Assembly (NCBI RefSeq): GCF_005280655.1
Contig: NZ_CP040058.1
Location: 1,898,001 to 1,962,000 of the forward strand
Direction: 5' to 3'
DNA: 64,000 nt
From: Anaerostipes rhamnosivorans
GTDB lineage: Bacteria; Bacillota; Clostridia; Lachnospirales; Lachnospiraceae
Below, piece by piece: positions 6,226 through 13,931 of this stretch (positions are counted from its first letter, which is position 1; each line of letters begins with the position of its first letter). A program made the position numbers and the translations under genes. Under the pieces are notes generated by a model that did no database searches, was not told the DNA's origin, and worked only from the letters and a program-made list of their open reading frames with translations.

Positions 6226-6372
6226 ATGAATCAACAAAAGGTCGGAGGTTTCCTCAAACAACTTCGGAAGGAAAAACAACTCACACAGGAACAGTTGGCA
6301 GAACAATTAAATGTATCTGGAAGAACCGTCTCAAGATGGGAAACTGGTGTTTCCCAAACAAAAAGATATTAA
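6226..6372 (+). pseudogene. XRE family regulator, 5' half, interrupted by the mobilizable element
   Basis: The frame opens with a strong GGAGG and encodes 'VGGFLKQLRKEKQLTQEQLAEQLNVSGRTVSRWETG', a complete XRE helix-turn-helix. It then leaves the family consensus and stops at 6370-6372 after 48 codons. Family members continue with '(E)TGNNMPEISLL', and exactly that continuation lies at 13455 on the other side of the element. Joining the two at the shared GGGAAAC keeps the frame and gives a protein of about 196 residues. The fragment could still be translated as a bare DNA-binding domain. Confidence 0.85.
6338..6344 (+). repeat. attL core GGGAAAC
   Basis: GGGAAAC here is repeated at 13453-13459, in the same codon phase of the split XRE gene. 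It marks the left junction of the element. It also forms a hairpin-like repeat with GTTTCCC at 6349-6355 just inside the element. Confidence 0.75.
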
Positions 6373-6425
6373 GAAACAGCCCATGTTTACCTGCTTGCAA
6401 ACAAAAGAATATTGCTACTAGACTA

Positions 6426-6461
6426 AGAGATACTACATAAGTGTGTTGGTATCTCTTTTTT
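6426..6461 (+). terminator. Intrinsic terminator inside the left end of the element
   Basis: AGAGATAC (6426-6433) pairs with GTATCTCT (6449-6456), followed by a run of T. It would stop transcripts coming from the XRE promoter before they enter the resistance genes. Confidence 0.75.
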
Positions 6462-6766
6462 GTTGCCGTGAAACAGCAGACTATTTCATTTCTGCTTGAT
6501 TACCTTAAAACTTATTAGTCTATGGTTTGTCAAGGGCTTGTTGCGTGAGAAATGCTGAATATCACCCTTTACAAAACATAGGCTGATAAGTAACTTTTCA
6601 AAAGCAGAAAAGAAATGGCAATGCTTATAACAATATGATATAATGCAGATGAAGACAAAAAAGGAATTTGTCGAGCTGGTTAGTTCGAGATAATTTTGAG
6701 TTTGTTAAGATGTGGTGCACTTGATGGAATCACAGGTACGACATCATATTATGGAGGATGAAATAG
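6462..6766. promoter_or_regulatory. Leader region of dfrF
   Basis: No gene is visible. A TATAAT box lies at 6640-6645 and is the best candidate for the -10 of the dfrF promoter, although no good -35 is seen. The rest is AT-rich and unassigned. Confidence 0.4.
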
Positions 6767-7240
6767 ATGATAGGTTTGATTGTTGCGAGGTCAAAGAATA
6801 ATGTTATAGGCAAGAATGGTAATATACCATGGAAAATAAAGGGAGAACAAAAGCAATTTAGAGAGTTAACAACGGGTAATGTGGTTATTATGGGGCGAAA
6901 GTCTTATGAAGAAATCGGTCATCCGTTGCCTAATAGAATGAATATTGTTGTTTCCACCACAACAGAGTATCAAGGAGATAATTTAGTTTCAGTTAAATCA
7001 TTAGAAGATGCATTATTATTGGCTAAAGGACGAGATGTATACATATCTGGTGGATATGGACTATTTAAGGAAGCTTTGCAAATAGTAGATAAAATGTATA
7101 TCACAGAAGTAGATTTAAATATTGAAGATGGAGATACATTCTTTCCAGAATTTGATATCAATGATTTTGAAGTTTTGATAGGGGAAACACTTGGTGAGGA
7201 AGTGAAATATACGAGAACATTTTATGTAAGGAAAAAATGA
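6767..7240 (+). CDS. dfrF: Dihydrofolate reductase, DfrF-like (trimethoprim resistance)
   Basis: A 157-residue bacterial DHFR that reduces dihydrofolate to tetrahydrofolate with NADPH. The N-terminal 'IGLIVARSKNNVIGKNGNIPWKI' carries the NADPH/substrate loop, 'VVIMGRKSYEEIG' the cofactor site, and 'VYISGGYGLFKEAL' the conserved GG motif. From memory it is close to DfrF of enterococci and streptococci, a trimethoprim-insensitive enzyme. The C-terminus looks frameshifted: with one A fewer in the six-A run near 7234 the protein would continue 'NELSKFWI' to a TAG, as I recall for DfrF. The missing tail lies beyond the last core strand, so activity is probably kept. GGAGG precedes the start. Confidence 0.85.
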   Translation: MIGLIVARSKNNVIGKNGNIPWKIKGEQKQFRELTTGNVVIMGRKSYEEIGHPLPNRMNIVVSTTTEYQGDNLVSVKSLEDALLLAKGRDVYISGGYGLFKEALQIVDKMYITEVDLNIEDGDTFFPEFDINDFEVLIGETLGEEVKYTRTFYVRKK

Positions 7241-7321
7241 ATTGAGTAAATTTTGGATTTAGGGTGTTTTCATAAATATATTGCTTTTTATGCATATATA
7301 AATTGTTGTAAGACAAATTCC

Positions 7322-7383
7322 AGTTGAACCAAATCGCTGCGCGATGGCCTGCCAAGGCTGTGGCGCAGCGATTTGGTTCAATT
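7322..7383. repeat. Large perfect hairpin between dfrF and the DinB-like gene
   Basis: Nineteen-base perfect arms (7324-7342 with 7363-7381), extendable by about three more pairs with one mismatch, around a 20-base loop. No T run follows on the plus strand. It is stronger than a usual terminator; it may terminate dfrF, protect mRNA or be the scar or end of a small insertion. Confidence 0.7.
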
Positions 7384-7389
7384 GGTAAA

Positions 7390-7466
7390 AATCGGTGTGC
7401 AGTCCAGAGGAATGGGCAGATACATTCTAAATGTAGTCTGCTTTTTCCTCTGTCCTGACGCCGATT
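7390..7466 (+). ncRNA. Nested inverted repeats, structured leader of the DinB-like gene
   Basis: Three stems nest within each other: AATCGG (7390-7395) with CCGATT (7461-7466); CAGAGGAA (7405-7412) with TTCCTCTG (7445-7452); and the GCAGATACAT side (7416-7425) with ATGTAGTCTGC (7431-7441). It lies directly after the big hairpin and 57 bases before the next start codon. It looks like a folded RNA leader or attenuator, class unknown. Confidence 0.5.
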
Positions 7467-7522
7467 GTTTACGAAATAATTTGTATGGGGCGATAAAATC
7501 AGAATTTGAGAGAGTATTGAAT

Positions 7523-8179
7523 ATGAATAAGGAATGGTCTGAACTTAATAAAACAATGCAGGCACAAATAAAAAAGAAAGATACTTATAAGAGGGGTATT
7601 GATACTTTACTTACTTTACGAAGTCAGTTAATACAAACCTTAGTATCTTTCAAAGAAGAATTATGCAGAGAAGATTTTAACTCAATCCCCTTCATAAACG
7701 CTGATGGTTATCATAGTAAGACGATTGCTTATTCTATTTGGCATATTTTCCGCATTGAAGATATAGTTGTGCATACAGTGATAAATGAAGATGAACAAGT
7801 ATTTTTTGCAGGCAATTATCAAGAGCGTATCAATTCACCTATCATTACAACAGGAAATGAACTCATGAAACAGCAGATTGCAGACTTTTCAAAACAGCTT
7901 AATCTGGAAGAATTATATTTATATATTTTCGAAGTATGGGAAAGCACTGAGAAAATGCTTGAACGGTTATCTTATGATGAATTGAAAAGAAAAATACCGA
8001 AAGAAAGAAAAGGATACTTAGAATCGTTGAATGTAGTAAACGACAATGAAAAAGCAATTTGGCTGATTGATTATTGGTGTAATAAAGATATTTGTGGACT
8101 AATTCAAATGCCGTTTTCAAGACATTGGATTATGCACACAGAAGCCTGTTTGCGTATAAAGAACAAGATACATTCATAG
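7523..8179 (+). CDS. DinB/YfiT-like superfamily protein
   Basis: A 218-residue protein. The start at 7523 is preferred over an upstream start at 7373, because the upstream frame runs through the folded leader and reads like non-coding sequence. 'KTIAYSIWHIFRIEDIVVHTVI' (about residues 70-91) and the C-terminal 'HWIMHTEACLRIK' supply the spaced histidines of the DinB four-helix metal-binding fold. Relatives include thiol-dependent enzymes and resistance-island hypotheticals; the substrate is unknown. It sits between two reductase genes as likely element cargo. Confidence 0.65.
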   Translation: MNKEWSELNKTMQAQIKKKDTYKRGIDTLLTLRSQLIQTLVSFKEELCREDFNSIPFINADGYHSKTIAYSIWHIFRIEDIVVHTVINEDEQVFFAGNYQERINSPIITTGNELMKQQIADFSKQLNLEELYLYIFEVWESTEKMLERLSYDELKRKIPKERKGYLESLNVVNDNEKAIWLIDYWCNKDICGLIQMPFSRHWIMHTEACLRIKNKIHS

Positions 8180-8234
8180 GCAAAAATTTCAGTTTGTAGA
8201 ACTAAGGAAATTGGAATTTAAGGAGGAATAAAGT

Positions 8235-8330
8235 ATGGTTAGTGATTTTATAAGAGCAGCATTTCCATGGATTTTAATGGGTTTATTTGTAGCAATCAGT
8301 TGTTCCCTTATGAGTAAAAAAGAGAAATAA
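8235..8330 (+). CDS. Very small membrane peptide (31 residues)
   Basis: ATG at 8235 is preceded by AGGAGG with good spacing. The peptide has one hydrophobic helix ('FPWILMGLFVAISCSLM') followed by a basic tail 'SKKEK' and a stop at 8328-8330. The strong ribosome site and clean single-helix layout argue that it is translated. Function unknown; single-helix peptides of this kind occur next to resistance genes. Confidence 0.6.
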   Translation: MVSDFIRAAFPWILMGLFVAISCSLMSKKEK

Positions 8331-8360
8331 ATTCCTGTTTGTATTTATAAAAGAGAAAAA

Positions 8361-8891
8361 ATGAGAAAAGTAGTTTTATTTATTGCCATGAGCCTTGACG
8401 GATATATTGCGGACGGTAATGGTGGAGTAGCTTGGCTAAATGGTCATGGAAATGACAATGAAAACATCGACACTTATACAGAATTTACCAAAGATATAGA
8501 TACTGTCTTAATGGGGTGGAATACTTCTCATCAGGTTGTTACTGAACTTTCTCCGCAAGAATGGGTATATAATAAATTTACAACTTATGTATTAACACAT
8601 AAAGAGTGCAATTCTTCCCAACAAATTCATTTTACAAGTGAAAATCCTGTTTTATTATTGGAACGGCTAAAACAAGAAGCAGGAAAGGATATTTGGATTT
8701 GTGGCGGAGCAAATCTTGTTCAGCAGTTGGTAAGCAAAAATATGATTGATAAATATTACATTTCTGTTATTCCTACTCTGTTAGGAAATGGGGTTCGTCT
8801 TTTGGGCAACATAGACAGGGAAATAAAGTTAAGGCTTTGTAAAACACAGACTTATAACGGAATAACCGATTTGATTTATATGCGTAGATAA
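8361..8891 (+). CDS. RibD C-terminal/dihydrofolate reductase-like protein
   Basis: A 176-residue protein of the YyaP/YwjB type. 'VVLFIAMSLDGYIADGNGGVAWL' is the standard N-terminus, 'DTVLMGWNTSHQVV' the central strand-helix and 'DIWICGGANLVQQLV' the NADPH-site GG motif. Such proteins share the fold of DHFR and RibD reductase but their substrate is usually unknown; some are found with resistance genes. It is the second DHFR-fold protein in this element, only distantly similar to dfrF. The ribosome site is weak (AAGAG). Confidence 0.78.
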   Translation: MRKVVLFIAMSLDGYIADGNGGVAWLNGHGNDNENIDTYTEFTKDIDTVLMGWNTSHQVVTELSPQEWVYNKFTTYVLTHKECNSSQQIHFTSENPVLLLERLKQEAGKDIWICGGANLVQQLVSKNMIDKYYISVIPTLLGNGVRLLGNIDREIKLRLCKTQTYNGITDLIYMRR

Positions 8892-8942
8892 CTAGAGAGA
8901 AACAGAAAAGCTGTTAAACCGACGGAGCGATCCGACCACGTT

Positions 8943-9053
8943 GGCGGGAAAATCCTTAAGATTTTTCCGCCATGCTTGCAAGGGGGCGGTTCGCTTCGGC
9001 GGTTCGGCGAGCTTGCGAGCCGTTCAAAGCCCCCGTTATCTAACAAGGGGGGC
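8943..9053 (+). other. Origin of transfer (oriT), Tn916/ICEBs1 type
   Basis: The core at 9029-9053 is GCCCCC, then GTTATCTAACAA, then GGGGGC. Blocks of C and G flanking TCTAACA/GCTAACA are what I recall of the ICEBs1 and Tn916 oriT nick regions, which MobT/NicK-type relaxases cut. An additional stem-loop lies at 8943-8954/8960-8971. It is placed just upstream of the MobT relaxase gene, where Tn916 also has its oriT. The nick position cannot be fixed here. Confidence 0.75.
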
Positions 9054-9141
9054 ACAAAAAACAAGAGTCAATATACATTAACAAGCGGAAAACGCTGTAT
9101 TTACAAGGCGAAACTGCATTTTACATGGTGTGATATAAATT

Positions 9142-9294
9142 ATGCCATTATCACTTGGGAAAATTGAACAAGACATAGGAAAGACAGTTGATTTCAAACG
9201 AGAAATTGATTGTCTTTTTCTTTTGCAGAAATTTAAGTATAGGCAATTATCAAATACGGTAGTTGCTTTTTTGATTGGAGGAATTTTAGAATGA
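9142..9294 (+). CDS. Possible small protein coupled to the relaxase gene
   Basis: An open frame of 50 residues starts at ATG 9142 and ends with TGA 9292-9294, overlapping the ATG of the relaxase at 9291. The overlap suggests translational coupling. There is no convincing ribosome site and no recognised domain; it may be a leftover of a longer upstream gene. Confidence 0.35.
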   Translation: MPLSLGKIEQDIGKTVDFKREIDCLFLLQKFKYRQLSNTVVAFLIGGILE

Positions 9295-10505
9295 ATGATA
9301 AAAACTTTATTGAAGAACTAAGACAAAAGCGTGAGGAATACGGAGTAACACAAACAAGGCTTGCTGTTGCCTGTGGTATCAGCCGTGAATATTACAACCG
9401 CATTGAAAAAGGGAAACAGCCATTGAATGACGAATTAAGAGAAGTCATAGAAAAACAGATTGAGCGTTTCAATCCGCAAGAACCACTATTCTTATTGATT
9501 GATTACTTTCGTGTCCGCTTTCCTACTACGGACGCATTGGCGATTATCCGTGATGTATTACAACTGAAATCTGATTATATGCTTTATGAAGATTATGGAA
9601 AATACGGATATGAAAGCAAATATGTACTTGGCGACATCAATATCATGTGTTCCATGCAGGAGCATTTAGGTGTTTTATTGGAACTGAAAGGCAAAGGCTG
9701 TCGGCAAATGGAATGTTATCTGCTGGCACAGGAACGCTCATGGTATGACTTCATGCTGGATTGTATGACGGCTGGTGGTGTGATGAAACGGCTTGATTTG
9801 GCTATCAATGACCGAGCAGGAATATTGGATATTCCAAAGTTAAAGGAAAAATACAAAGCTGGCGAATGTGTTTCCTATTTTCGTATGCAGAAAGATTACA
9901 GCGGTACAGAAAAATGCGGTAGCGATTTACCAAAGAATACAGGAGAAACCTTATATCTCGGTTCAACAAGTAGCGAATTATATATGTGTGCTTATCAGAA
10001 AAATTATGAGCAGTATGTCAAGAATGGCACAGAAATTGAAGATACGGAGATTAAGAACCGTTTTGAAATACGCATGAAGAATGAACGAGCCTATTATGCG
10101 GTTGTAGATTTACTGACCTATCGGGACGCTGAACGCACCGCTTTTTCTATCATCAATCATTATGTCCGCTTTGTTGACAGAGAGGACGACAAGCCAAAAA
10201 GTCAATGGATAACAAATGATGATTGGGCATGGTTTGTAGGGGAAAACAGAGAGCCGATACGCTTAACCACAAAGCCAGAGCCTTACACTTTACAAAAAGC
10301 GTTGCATTGGCTACAAAGACAAGTTGCACCAACAATAAAAATGGTACAGGCATTAGACAGAGAAAATCATACAACGATACTGAAAGATATGATTGAGCAG
10401 GCAGAACTTAAAGACAAGCATAAACATTTATTACAATTAGAGAAATCAACCATAGAAGAACGTATAGATACCGCTGTTCCACAAGAGAATGACGGTATTT
10501 TTTAA
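9291..10505 (+). CDS. MobT family relaxase / Rep_trans replication initiator
   Basis: A 404-residue protein resembling Tn916 Orf20 and ICEBs1 NicK. Residues 1-65 form an XRE-like helix-turn-helix ('YGVTQTRLAVACGISREYYNRIEKGKQPL'). The rest matches the Rep_trans family, with the signature 'GGVMKRLDLAINDRAG' near residues 160-175 (RxDxxxD-type acidic metal site) and 'YLGSTSSELYMCAYQK' near 220. It should nick oriT at about 9.04 kb and start rolling-circle transfer or replication. GGAGG precedes the start. It is full length for the family. Confidence 0.88.
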   Translation: MNDKNFIEELRQKREEYGVTQTRLAVACGISREYYNRIEKGKQPLNDELREVIEKQIERFNPQEPLFLLIDYFRVRFPTTDALAIIRDVLQLKSDYMLYEDYGKYGYESKYVLGDINIMCSMQEHLGVLLELKGKGCRQMECYLLAQERSWYDFMLDCMTAGGVMKRLDLAINDRAGILDIPKLKEKYKAGECVSYFRMQKDYSGTEKCGSDLPKNTGETLYLGSTSSELYMCAYQKNYEQYVKNGTEIEDTEIKNRFEIRMKNERAYYAVVDLLTYRDAERTAFSIINHYVRFVDREDDKPKSQWITNDDWAWFVGENREPIRLTTKPEPYTLQKALHWLQRQVAPTIKMVQALDRENHTTILKDMIEQAELKDKHKHLLQLEKSTIEERIDTAVPQENDGIF

Positions 10506-10550
10506 TGTAATTGAAAAATTTCAGATTTAGTCAGCAAAGAGCTGTTTTCA

Positions 10551-11095
10551 TTCCCTATGTGAAGTGAAAGAAGAAAAATAAATTTTTTATTAAATCTGCA
10601 ACAAAACGGCTACTTGCGTACAGATATGGTGCGAGAAAAGGAAATCTAAACTTTTTTTGAAAATAGGTCATTAAATCGGGGCTTGCTGTCCCTATATGAA
10701 GTGAAAGAAGAAAAAAGTTTTGAAAAAATGACGGAAATTCGTGATTAGTGGACAGTGTTCTATGAAAAGAAGAAAAGCATCATCATTTTGTATTCAAACA
10801 GGCATTAGCAGTTGAGTGTTGATGTGAAAAGAGGAAAATACTTTATTCTAAACTTAACAATTTAAGGTTTCCGTTCCCTATATGGTGCAAAGAAAATATT
10901 TCATTCTATTGTTGGCAGTAACGGTATGGTTTGGGTAGTTAGGGTGTGAAAAGAAAAATAATCTTTTTTCGTCATTAACTTAGCAAAATGACAATGTCTA
11001 TCCCTATATGGTGCAAGAAAAGAAGTTAAAATTTTTCCATTTCAACTTAGCAAATGGACGTTTGCTGTACAGATAGTAGTGAAAAAGGAGAAAAT
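10551..11095 (+). repeat. Array of about nine degenerate repeats, period about 64 bp
   Basis: A motif close to CCCTATATGGTGMAAGAAAAG recurs with its GTG(A/C)AA at 10564, 10629, 10701, 10762 (degenerate), 10824, 10885, 10946, 11011 and 11079, that is every 61-72 bases. The better copies are preceded by a second block like TTAGCAAAATG. Spacer sequence is variable and AT-rich. There is no long open frame. It lies directly downstream of the relaxase. Confidence 0.75.
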
Positions 11096-11533
11096 CAACC
11101 GTTGATTGCCAAAATGAACCGTTCCATTTGTACTAATAACGGAAAAAGTTTTGGATTTTGGTTACGTTTCCCCTCTTTTCCAACGCGGTATATAGGAAAG
11201 ATGATTTTCTTCTTTCGTGTTCTTTGACAACTGAATAAAGCAATTCAATACGTTTGACAGACAGCGAGCCGTTGAAACAAATACGCCACGACCTTTCCCC
11301 TGCAAGAGCGAGCGAAAACCTATTTGTGTTCTTATAAAAGATTTGTCCTCTTTTATCGCCATGACCTGTACTGTCAGATAATGATACTCCCGTACAGCCA
11401 CAGCTTGAGCGTTCAGAGCGTCGCACGCAATGGGTACGGCTACATAAGAACTATGCAGAGGTGGAACTCCTGTGGGCTATGACAAAAGCCGTTGAATTGC
11501 TTAGAAAGATTTTACAGAAAGGGGGTATGTGTT
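11096..11533. other. Region between repeat array and TnpW-like gene
   Basis: There is no convincing complete gene. A frame on the plus strand is open from 11365 to a stop at 11536-11538 and reads like protein ('LERSERRTQWVRLHKNYAEV', then 'AMTKAVELLRKILQKGG') but has no ATG at its beginning and stops just upstream in the same frame; it may be a small gene with an unusual start or the tail of a decayed one. Minus-strand frames across 11133-11426 look like shadows. Confidence 0.35.
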
Positions 11534-11701
11534 ATTGATAATGCTGTAAAAACAATTCAAAAGAAAAATGGCAAGTGTGGCATTGGCAACAGAGGAAAGA
11601 CAAAGATTGTAGTAAAAGAGCATTTTTCCGAAAAGGGCAAAACAATGGAAGAACTTCTAACTGATGTCATGCTGGAAAAAGCAAAGCAGACAATCGCATA
11701 A
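11534..11701 (+). CDS. TnpW-like small transposon protein
   Basis: About 55 residues ending 'TKIVVKEHFSEKGKTMEELLTDVMLEKA', which fits the TnpW family found beside TnpX recombinases of Tn4451-type elements ('VHFSE...ETMEDKI'). The start is unclear. AAAGGGGG at 11518-11525 is an excellent ribosome site, but the only in-frame codon at normal spacing is ATT (11534); a TTG at 11492 is the next alternative. The role of TnpW is not established. Confidence 0.6.
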   Translation: MDNAVKTIQKKNGKCGIGNRGKTKIVVKEHFSEKGKTMEELLTDVMLEKAKQTIA

Positions 11702-11742
11702 AATCAGTGCAGTTGTAAGAAATAGATTGAATGACAAAAAGT

Positions 11743-11787
11743 ACCCGTGTTATACTTTACTTGCAAGCAGGTATTGTAAACACGGGT
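11743..11787. promoter_or_regulatory. Inverted repeat over the recombinase promoter
   Basis: ACCCGTGTT (11743-11751) pairs with AACACGGGT (11779-11787). A plausible -10 TATACT at 11751-11756 with TTGAAT at 11727-11732 (18 bp apart) overlaps the left arm. It may be an operator or a leader hairpin that limits recombinase expression. Confidence 0.5.
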
Positions 11788-11812
11788 TAGTTATAAAGGA
11801 GGATAACTGACA

Positions 11813-13426
11813 ATGAAACAACAGATTTACAATACTGCACTTTATCTTAGGTTAAGCCGAGATGATGAATTACAGGGCGAAAGTTCCAGCATTACCACAC
11901 AGAGAAGTATGTTGCGTTTATATGCAAAAGAACATCATTTGAATGTCATTGATGAATATATTGATGACGGCTGGTCGGGAACAAATTTTGACAGACCGAG
12001 TTTTCAAAGAATGATTGAGGATATAGAGGCAGGAAAAATCAACTGTGTTGTAACGAAAGACCTTTCCCGTCTTGGCAGAAATTATATTATGACAGGACAA
12101 TATACAGAATTGTATTTCCCTAGTCATAATGTCCGCTACATAGCGATTGATGACGGTGTAGACAGCGAAAAAGGCGAAAGTGAGATTGCACCATTTAAGA
12201 ACATCATCAATGAATGGGTGGCAAGAGATACAAGCCGTAAAGTCAAATCAGCATTTAAGACAAAGTTTGCGGAGGGGGCTCATTACAGTGCTTATGCTCC
12301 GTTAGGATATAAGAAACACCCTGACATCAAAGGAAAACTGTTGATTGATGATGAAACAAAATGGATTATTGAAAAAATCTTTTCCCTAGCCTATCAAGGT
12401 TACGGAAGTGCAAAAATCACAAAGCAGTTAAGAGCAGAAAAAGTTCCGACAGCGTCATGGCTAAATTTTACAAGATACGGTACTTTTGCACATATCTTTG
12501 AGGGAAAACCCGAAAGTAAGCGTTATGAGTGGACGATTGCTCATGTCAAGGCGATATTGAAAAGTGAGGTTTATATCGGAAACAGTGTTCACAATATGCA
12601 GTCTACGGTATCGTTCAAGAGTAAAAAGAAAGTGCGTAAACCCGAAAGTGAATGGTTTCGAGTAGAAAACACTCACGAGCCGATTATTGACAAGGAAGTG
12701 TTCTATCGTGTGCAGGAGCAGATAAAATCAAGACGCAGACAGACAAAGGAAAAGGCAACGCCGATTTTTGCAGGGCTTGTCAAGTGTGCGGATTGTGGCT
12801 GGTCTATGAGATTTGGAACGAATAAGGCAAATAAAACGCCTTACAGTTATTATGCTTGCAGTTACTACGGGCAGTTTGGCAAAGGTAATTGTTCTATGCA
12901 CTACATTCGTTATGATGTGCTGTATCAAGCCGTATTGGAACGCTTGCAGTATTGGGCTAAGGCAGTACAGCAGGACGAAGAAAAGGTATTGAACAAGATA
13001 CAGAAAGTCGGCAATGCAGAGCGAATACGGGAAAAGAAGAAAAAGGCAAGTACATTGAAGAAAGCCGAGAACAGACAAAATGAGATTGACCGTTTATTTG
13101 CGAAAATGTATGAAGATAGAGCCTGTGAGAAGATAACAGAGCGAAATTTTGTGATGTTGTCCAGCAAGTACCAAAAAGAACAGATAGAACTGGAACAGCA
13201 GATAACAAGCCTAAGAGAAGAACTAAGTAAAATGGAACAGGATATGATAGGTGCTGAAAAGTGGATTGAGTTAATCAAGGAATATTCCGTACCAAAGGAA
13301 CTGACAGCACCATTATTAAATGCCATGATAGAAAAAATCCTCATACATGAAGCAACAACGAATGAGGATAACGAAAGAATACAGGAAATTGAGATATATT
13401 ACCGATTTATCGGAAAAGTTGAGTAA
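11813..13426 (+). CDS. Large serine recombinase, TnpX/TndX type
   Basis: A 537-residue site-specific recombinase. Residues 6-150 are the resolvase domain with catalytic serine in 'ALYLRLSRDDE' and the conserved 'TKDLSRLGRNYIMTG'; then a recombinase domain ('GYKKHPDIKGKLLIDDE'), a zinc ribbon with 'CADCGWSMRF' and 'YYACSYYG...GNCS' (about residues 322-363), a long coiled coil (about 395-490) and a DUF4368-like end. It cuts both attachment sites and exchanges them, so it integrates and excises the element. AGGAGG precedes the start. It is at the right end of the element, 27 bases from the attR core. Confidence 0.93.
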   Translation: MKQQIYNTALYLRLSRDDELQGESSSITTQRSMLRLYAKEHHLNVIDEYIDDGWSGTNFDRPSFQRMIEDIEAGKINCVVTKDLSRLGRNYIMTGQYTELYFPSHNVRYIAIDDGVDSEKGESEIAPFKNIINEWVARDTSRKVKSAFKTKFAEGAHYSAYAPLGYKKHPDIKGKLLIDDETKWIIEKIFSLAYQGYGSAKITKQLRAEKVPTASWLNFTRYGTFAHIFEGKPESKRYEWTIAHVKAILKSEVYIGNSVHNMQSTVSFKSKKKVRKPESEWFRVENTHEPIIDKEVFYRVQEQIKSRRRQTKEKATPIFAGLVKCADCGWSMRFGTNKANKTPYSYYACSYYGQFGKGNCSMHYIRYDVLYQAVLERLQYWAKAVQQDEEKVLNKIQKVGNAERIREKKKKASTLKKAENRQNEIDRLFAKMYEDRACEKITERNFVMLSSKYQKEQIELEQQITSLREELSKMEQDMIGAEKWIELIKEYSVPKELTAPLLNAMIEKILIHEATTNEDNERIQEIEIYYRFIGKVE

Positions 13427-13452
13427 TCAACAAGAGTAATATTTTTAACTAA

Positions 13453-13459
13453 GGGAAAC
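13453..13459 (+). repeat. attR core GGGAAAC
   Basis: Right copy of the 7-base direct repeat, in the same codon phase as 6338-6344. To its right the XRE gene resumes. Confidence 0.75.
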
Positions 13460-13931
13460 CGGAAATAATATGCCGGAGATCAGTCTGCTGGTTGAAATCG
13501 CTGAGTTTTATGATGTGAGTATTCCAGAGATTATTGACGGAGAAAGGAAAAGCGAGAAAATGAAGGAAGAGTCAAAAGAAGTTGCAATGTCGTTATCTGA
13601 TTATGCGTTAAAAGAAAAGGAAAACCTTATAAAAAACATACGTATACAAAGTATATTCGGAGTAGCCGCTTTAGCAGTCTATTTTGTTATTGATACTGCC
13701 GGAGCAGCGATGCCATCATATGCCTGGATTGGGCTTTTGTCAAACTACTGTCATACACTGATCTTTGTTACGCCAGTTATGATATTACTATATACCACAG
13801 GACTATTGAAAACGACGGAAAATCGAAGAATTCAGAGTACAGCGCCAAAGAGTATCTTAATACTACTGGCCATCGTGGCTGCCACAGTGGTAAGTTGTTT
13901 TATCAAGTTTATTTCGTCACTTTTATTTTAA
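13455..13931 (+). pseudogene. XRE family regulator, 3' half
   Basis: From 13455 the frame reads 'ETGNNMPEISLLVEIAEFYDVSIPEIIDGE', the standard end of an XRE helix-turn-helix domain. A charged linker and three hydrophobic segments (starting near 13650, 13715 and 13845) follow. It lacks its own start and ribosome site; the ATG at 13470 is internal. Its missing first 38 codons are at 6226-6339. The intact protein would be a membrane-anchored regulator. Confidence 0.85.

Follow-up and report, generated by a model that had tools for sequence, protein, structure and literature searches.

The genome of Anaerostipes rhamnosivorans (Lachnospiraceae; one contig, 3.59 Mb) contains, within a stretch of 64,000 nucleotides that is called the window here (NZ_CP040058.1, positions 1,898,001 to 1,962,000), a gene for a XRE/HTH_3 transcription regulator that is split by an element carrying a large serine recombinase. 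The question raised by this locus is whether the element is there to switch this particular regulator on and off, as a preliminary description based on the sequence of the window had suggested, or whether regulators of this kind happen to encode the DNA at which such elements are inserted. The comparisons reported below make it very probable that the split results from a conservative site-specific insertion, and that the element belongs to a family aimed at a codon motif of HTH_3 regulators.

The split regulator and its counterparts

The regulator gene starts at 6226, behind an AGGAGG site, and runs for 41 codons of its own before the foreign DNA sets in; a stop codon at 6370-6372 closes a fragment of 48 codons, as previously described, in which residues 10-43 match HTH_3 (PF01381, 42.1 bits, cut-off 23). 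The rest of the gene is indeed found on the far side of the element, beginning at 13461 and not at 13455 as first proposed, with an orphan ATG at 13470 that opens a reading frame of 153 aa, and its three hydrophobic stretches make “membrane-type” a fair label for the regulator (Table 1). Wholeness was assessed by aligning the N and C pieces separately, with no artificial joining, to uninterrupted homologues. The two pieces are 63-88% and 39-61% identical, respectively, to 11 such proteins from other genomes, and in 11/11 exactly two residues separate Gly41, where the N piece ends, from the first residue of the C piece; they are the two codons (N-N) preceding the ATG. These alignments, together with the HTH_3 match, bear out the proposed in-frame split, and the coordinates give 40 + 156 = 196 codons, the length that had been estimated for the restored frame. 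The split is more than chance, because the same cut at the same residue recurs in 19 other loci. An empty site of the window’s own regulator was found in none of the sets of 61, 11 and 397 genomes searched, which overlap and include the genome itself.

Table 1. Positions, within the window, of the two regulator pieces and of the parts of the element.
Feature	Position	Strand	Remarks
5' part of interrupted XRE/HTH_3 regulator	6226..6369	+	48 codons, the last 7 from the element end
GG exchange point, left (presumed)	6346..6347		Opens the Gly codon of W-E-T-G (its bases 1 and 2)
Left terminal repeat	6346..6369		GTTTCCC ... GATAT
dfrF, trimethoprim-resistant dihydrofolate reductase	6767..7240	+	NCBIfam NF000333, 360.3 bits, cut-off 320
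Cargo gene	7523..8179	+	Weakly mycothiol-transferase/DinB-like (NF047843 35.9 bits, far under cut-off 170); no Pfam match
Cargo gene, RibD C-terminal domain (dihydrofolate-reductase-like) protein	8361..8891	+	PF01872 78.4 bits, cut-off 24.1
Long stable GC-rich inverted repeats	8915..9065		Directly 5' of the relaxase gene; predicted RNA fold -66.5 kcal/mol over 151 nt; as a guess, candidate transfer origin
MobT-like relaxase	9291..10505	+	N-terminal HTH, Rol_Rep_N, Rep_trans
Small open reading frame 5' of the recombinase gene	11492..11701	+	Perhaps TnpW-like; no Pfam match for the last 56 residues
Large serine recombinase, presumed integrase	11813..13426	+	Resolvase, Recombinase, zinc ribbon and DUF4368, all four over Pfam cut-off
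Right terminal repeat	13439..13462		ATATT ... GGGAAAC; origin of the apparent GGGAAAC repeat
GG exchange point, right (presumed)	13461..13462		Placed by junction comparison and the orthologue of another target
3' part of interrupted regulator	13461..13931	+	Linker and three hydrophobic stretches

The recurrence was established with relatives of the recombinase, for which the best 80 of 237 found were taken (54-100% identical); the right flank could be read in 77, which have 150 bp or more behind the gene; the sequences of L064, L120 and L124 are too short. In addition to the window, 65/77 interrupt a XRE-type regulator at its W-E-x-G codons, 63 of them with the 3' XRE part in phase and two, L072 and L073, reversed. 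A profile that includes W-E-x-G, and so contains residues supplied by the element, gives at least 8 bits in 65/78 (window included) vs 1 of 261 control windows taken 1.5-6 kb further downstream, and has a false positive in L054. A strict profile that starts after W-E-x-G is positive at 5 bits or more in 54/77 (55/78 with the window) vs 1/261 controls, and at 8 bits or more in 50/78 vs 0/261. On the left, 20 loci including the window show the N-terminal part of a regulator that breaks off at W-E-x-G and continues into a few element codons; 19 of these also have the XRE part on the right, the remaining one being L068. Three loci have a left end in sequence that is not of XRE type (L054, L061, L063), and in the other 58/81 the left end was not recognised, often because little upstream sequence is available. 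The targets differ from one another: at 70% identity the 20 left pieces fall into 20 clusters and 54 right pieces into 51, one of the 55 being too short for clustering. Even in the closest group, with recombinases at least 96% identical (n = 21 with the window and a copy on an Enterococcus plasmid), the target is a XRE gene in 16, something else in 4 (L054, L061, L063, L196) and unreadable in 1 (L064). The reversed L072 and L073 are Faecalibacterium elements that entered the W-E-x-G codons of XRE genes the other way round and have a differing right end. In L066 and L096, whose recombinases are 84% and 61% identical to that of the window, the insertion is at the same codon of alike regulators (>90% across the 32 residues compared).

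A second set consisted of 13 loci (7 from IMG/VR and 6 from plasmids) out of 8 viral hits and 16 plasmid records, with L222 (29% identical) and the plasmid records H11-H20 (<45% identical) left out and H16 (TndX) used for the tree only. Here the target is a XRE gene in 8/12 testable loci, L220 being too short, and in 7/12 by the strict profile; two of the positives, L218 and L219, look like the same sequence. In a tree of 93 recombinases (two dropped for being shorter than 450 aa; L064, L068 and L120 left out), the rows with other targets are scattered and there is no clean clade boundary; five diverged ones (L122, L124, L125, L126 and L128) fall together with a number of XRE rows, with a support of 0.48. 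The four testable loci of the second set with no XRE target are L196, which lies in an apparent permease gene (see below), L215, L216 and L226. Two viral contigs of 153 and 161 kb (L215, L216) have a right end that runs directly into an apparent left end, an arrangement that probably represents an unintegrated attP or a tandem array, and on a Lactobacillus amylovorus plasmid (L226) the element end adjoins GTCATCCCCACTTACGTGGGTA-like repeats, which may be a CRISPR array.

Exchange point and DNA motif

The join of the two regulator pieces had first been placed at GGGAAAC. Three elements that are 98-99% identical to that of the window over most of their length and lie in other genomes and targets (L050, L052, L053) bear on this point: on the left, the junction sequence changes with the target as far as the last base ahead of GG (GGGAAACAGG, GGGAGAGAGG, GGGAAACTGG); on the right, all three end ...AAGGGAAACCGG, and L052 still ends in AAGGGAAACCGG although its target has GAGAGAGG. 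The string GGGAAACC is the inner part of the terminal inverted repeat (GTTTCCC in the left copy), and it belongs to the element because the right junctions are constant while the left ones vary with the target. Uninterrupted genes point the same way. The orthologue of the target of L052, the Eubacterium ramulus copy, is 89% identical and has W-E-R-G, as does the left flank, so that Arg and not Thr stands at x, and agreement on the right side is from GG onward; for L066, which has W-E-A on the left, three homologues 65-77% identical carry N, S or A at this position, Thr, the residue expected from the right end, occurs in none of them, and agreement is again from GG onward. GGGAAAC was therefore rejected as the join, since it is supplied by the element end. 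The exchange would instead take place at the following GG (6346-6347 and 13461-13462), which would be the GG that starts the Gly codon of W-E-x-G.

Around this centre a longer DNA motif can be recognised. Counted outward from GG, the element ends in the window carry, in both arms, GGGAA at 9-5 and ATAT[CT] at 23-19; the targets have in their left arm TGGGAR at 10-5 (20/20) and a looser RTNTC at 19-15, and in their right arm GAYAT at 15-19. When GAYAT is counted with at least 4 of 5 bases and tallied over 70 of 81 centres, it occupies half-site positions 15-19 in 51/63 XRE targets. In XRE genes the pattern could arise from the constraint on the encoded protein alone, which makes the other targets the informative cases: GAYAT is found at position 15 in 5/7 of them (L124 and L126 fail) vs 0-2/7 at the 12 other printed offsets, the Enterococcus faecium copy L196, without GAYAT, lying outside the seven counted. 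That the right-hand motif is kept in 5/7 targets of other kinds argues that it is the DNA, and not the protein, that is read. The inner motif has the same position in ends and targets, and the outer one is at 19-23 in the ends and at 15-19 in the targets, that is, 4 bp inward; this would fit what is expected of attB vs attP, given that the zinc-ribbon motif of the LI integrase, according to the part of the source available, is 5 bp further inward in attB than in attP (PMC3783163). The full motif, RTNTCN4TGGGARN3GGN13GAYAT, spans about 38 bp and forms an imperfect palindrome around the central GG, which the two arms share, and in protein terms it reads [VI]-S-x-W-E-x-G-x3-P-D-I; the centre is GG in 20/20 left pieces and in 50/55 right pieces. 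With up to two mismatches the full motif occurs at 18 places of the host genome vs 2 for a reversed-pattern control, and 8/8 places with at most one mismatch, as well as 3/10 with two, are inside HTH_3 matches.

Weighing the readings

The reading that we favour can be put as follows. The recombinase would join the attP of the element to a GG-centred attB encoded within HTH_3 genes, recognising RTNTC-N4-TGGGAR-N3-GG in the left arm and GG-N13-GAYAT in the right arm, and these genes would carry the target DNA because the conserved [VI]-S-x-W-E-x-G-x3-P-D-I is encoded there. In each host the element would land in one of several paralogous regulators and break it after W-E-x-G, inside the HTH domain, with a 5' product that would end a few codons later and a 3' part that would be left without most of the DNA-binding domain. 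We infer, with good support, both the integration and its site; excision through the same GG, which the chemistry of the recombinase family leads one to expect, would make the regulator whole, and the relaxase suggests that the element could be mobilised by a conjugative helper. Any loss of regulation is most plausibly a side effect of where the element is addressed.

Several observations weigh against this reading. No XRE gene is found in 11/77 relatives (L054, L061, L063, L079, L084, L117, L122, L123, L125, L126 and L128), as in most rows of the highest divergence (54-56%); in L068, whose left side holds a XRE piece, the right side is N. For L122, L123 and L125 the sequence behind the recombinase gene shows no recognisable element end, hence no readable target; the target of L054 is what we take to be an AAA/DUF4143-like gene, and that of L084 and L117 is, by eye, a nuclease-like gene. 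The 98.6% identical copy L196, on an Enterococcus faecium plasmid (NZ_CP065930.1, 24134-41093), lies in an apparent amino-acid permease gene, at a site with TGGGA on the left and without GAYAT on the right. Ten of the 65 positives of the profile including W-E-x-G score below 5 bits in the strict one, RTNTC is loose (its last T and its last C are each found in 14/20), and for the window’s own regulator no close uninterrupted orthologue was found, the best being 55% identical. The motif count in the host genome is partly circular, the motif being drawn mostly from XRE targets, and the 9 untargeted background sites are too few for a preference within the regulator family. Finally, the centre is GA in 5/55 right pieces (L082, L090, L094, L103 and L127; recombinases 60-63% identical), which may reflect a W-E-x-[DE] type or a different centre in those lines, and because of these five our confidence is slightly lowered. 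The L196 copy also carries two IS1251-family transposase genes and further cargo.

An extension of the favoured reading, in which a clade of gut mobile elements would use the family motif as a universal and reversible address, and in which their entry and exit would, as in a lottery played across the population, silence and restore different regulators in different hosts, the consequences selecting the elements, appears improbable to us. Still less probable is a plain insertion of low specificity, for which a short core such as TGGGARNNNGG would be enough and XRE genes would be hit through their abundance. The E. faecium plasmid copy, having TGGGA without the right-hand motif, is what such a process would produce, and a clade reported to be multi-targeting contains many DUF4368 recombinases (PMC10083194, in the part available); but the host genome has 228 occurrences of the short core, vs 83 of the reversed-pattern control, only 1 of the first 30 of these 228 is in a XRE gene, vs 65/77 insertions, and the right-hand motif recurs in targets outside the XRE genes. 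TGGGARNNNGG was therefore rejected as a sufficient target.

The reversible genetic switch of the preliminary description, an element kept because its regulated excision and re-entry toggle the regulator and the genes under its control, is in our estimate highly unlikely. It has in its favour that conservative junctions make the regulator recoverable through excision, and that the distant relative TndX (37.6% identical) is, going by the title of a cited paper, sufficient for integration and excision. The part of the proposal according to which precise excision restores the regulator thus retains its value, as something to be expected from the junctions and from the uninterrupted orthologues of other targets. 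However, relatives of the element are found in quite different regulators, of which this one is a single landing site among many with nothing to mark it out, and near-identical elements sometimes lie in genes that are no regulators (L054, the E. faecium plasmid). The upstream methyltransferase and membrane protein, which the preliminary description had named as perhaps controlled by the regulator, show no conserved link with it either: they were not clearly found in the flanks (about 1.5 kb) of 12 homologue loci, where one weak match to the methyltransferase (L192, 21% identity, E 4e-5) and one to the membrane protein (L009, E 0.004) were the only ones, and they were rejected as conserved partners. 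Least probable of all is a selection after insertion, with fairly broad entry and survival of the copies in dispensable XRE genes, since, although the data consist of surviving insertions only and XRE regulators are often dispensable, it gives no account of the same-codon cut in 20/20 regulator left pieces found, nor of the motif in targets of other kinds.

The element and known systems

The element is 7,115 bp long, with limits at 6346/6348 and 13460/13462. Its relaxase matches PF02486 (242 bits) and PF18106 (105 bits), both over cut-off, and the NCBIfam MobT model with 572 bits, slightly under the cut-off of 600. No conjugation genes were found among its larger open reading frames, those scanned with Pfam. 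With its own recombinase, defined ends and its own relaxase, it is a putative integrative mobilizable element (IME), and the presence of almost identical copies in other genera points to a recent transfer. The recombinase has the four domains of the DUF4368 (TnpX/TndX-like) clade and, among its relatives, several distinct target genes; its N-terminal part is matched by TnpX in the PDB. Elsewhere, the host genome encodes two more large serine recombinases, L002 and L003, which are 44% and 36% identical to it.

Comparison with known systems was made from partial texts of the sources. One of the two closest precedents is Tn5397, a Tn916-related element with the TndX-type serine recombinase, which prefers DNA coding for the widespread Fic domain (PMC4430133). 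The two have in common a TndX-type large serine recombinase and a target in the DNA of one widespread domain; they differ in that TndX is 37.6% identical and uses a GA centre and a Fic target, vs GG and HTH_3 codons here, and in that Tn5397 is a conjugative transposon, whereas only a relaxase was found in the element of the window. The GA centre of TndX equals that of the right pieces of the five diverged relatives. The other is found in Streptococcus suis, where IMEs with a serine integrase lie inside a HTH_XRE regulator gene, one copy having a resistance gene (PMC7168690). They are thus alike in being mobilizable and in their type of integrase, target gene and occasional resistance gene, but, compared by description, they share a single specificity of integration, related integrases being found at a variety of intergenic positions, and no family-wide codon motif is given in the text available. 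A clade of multi-targeting large serine recombinases, with DUF4368 in most members, many target genes and TndX-like enzymes included, has been described as well (PMC10083194); it shares DUF4368 and the multiplicity of targets with the present family, but in the available text it is left out of the target-gene domain enrichment, and the motif given as an example combines a TT core with AT-rich ends, more complex motifs being mentioned only in passing. Tn6218, a small, Tn916-related and non-conjugative element that sometimes carries resistance genes and has similar elements in Lachnospiraceae (PMC3914685), resembles the element in size, lack of conjugation and occasional resistance genes. It was considered as the closest relative and rejected, since it has a tyrosine recombinase and AT-rich sites, in contrast to the serine recombinase here (PMC3914685).

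A Fic-directed TndX element, a XRE-gene IME in S. suis and multi-targeting DUF4368 recombinases are thus already known; the literature searched, from which the supplement of PMC10083194 is excluded, yielded no description of a whole family directed at a codon motif that paralogous HTH_3 regulators share. If the favoured reading is true, it would account for a serine recombinase that is multi-targeting and still site-specific, with several landing sites per host: such an enzyme would read DNA which an abundant gene family has to conserve on account of a protein motif. The reading would also predict where such elements, some of them resistance-bearing, land and that they often break transcription regulators, and it would provide a defined GG-centred motif for a poorly understood clade of recombinases.

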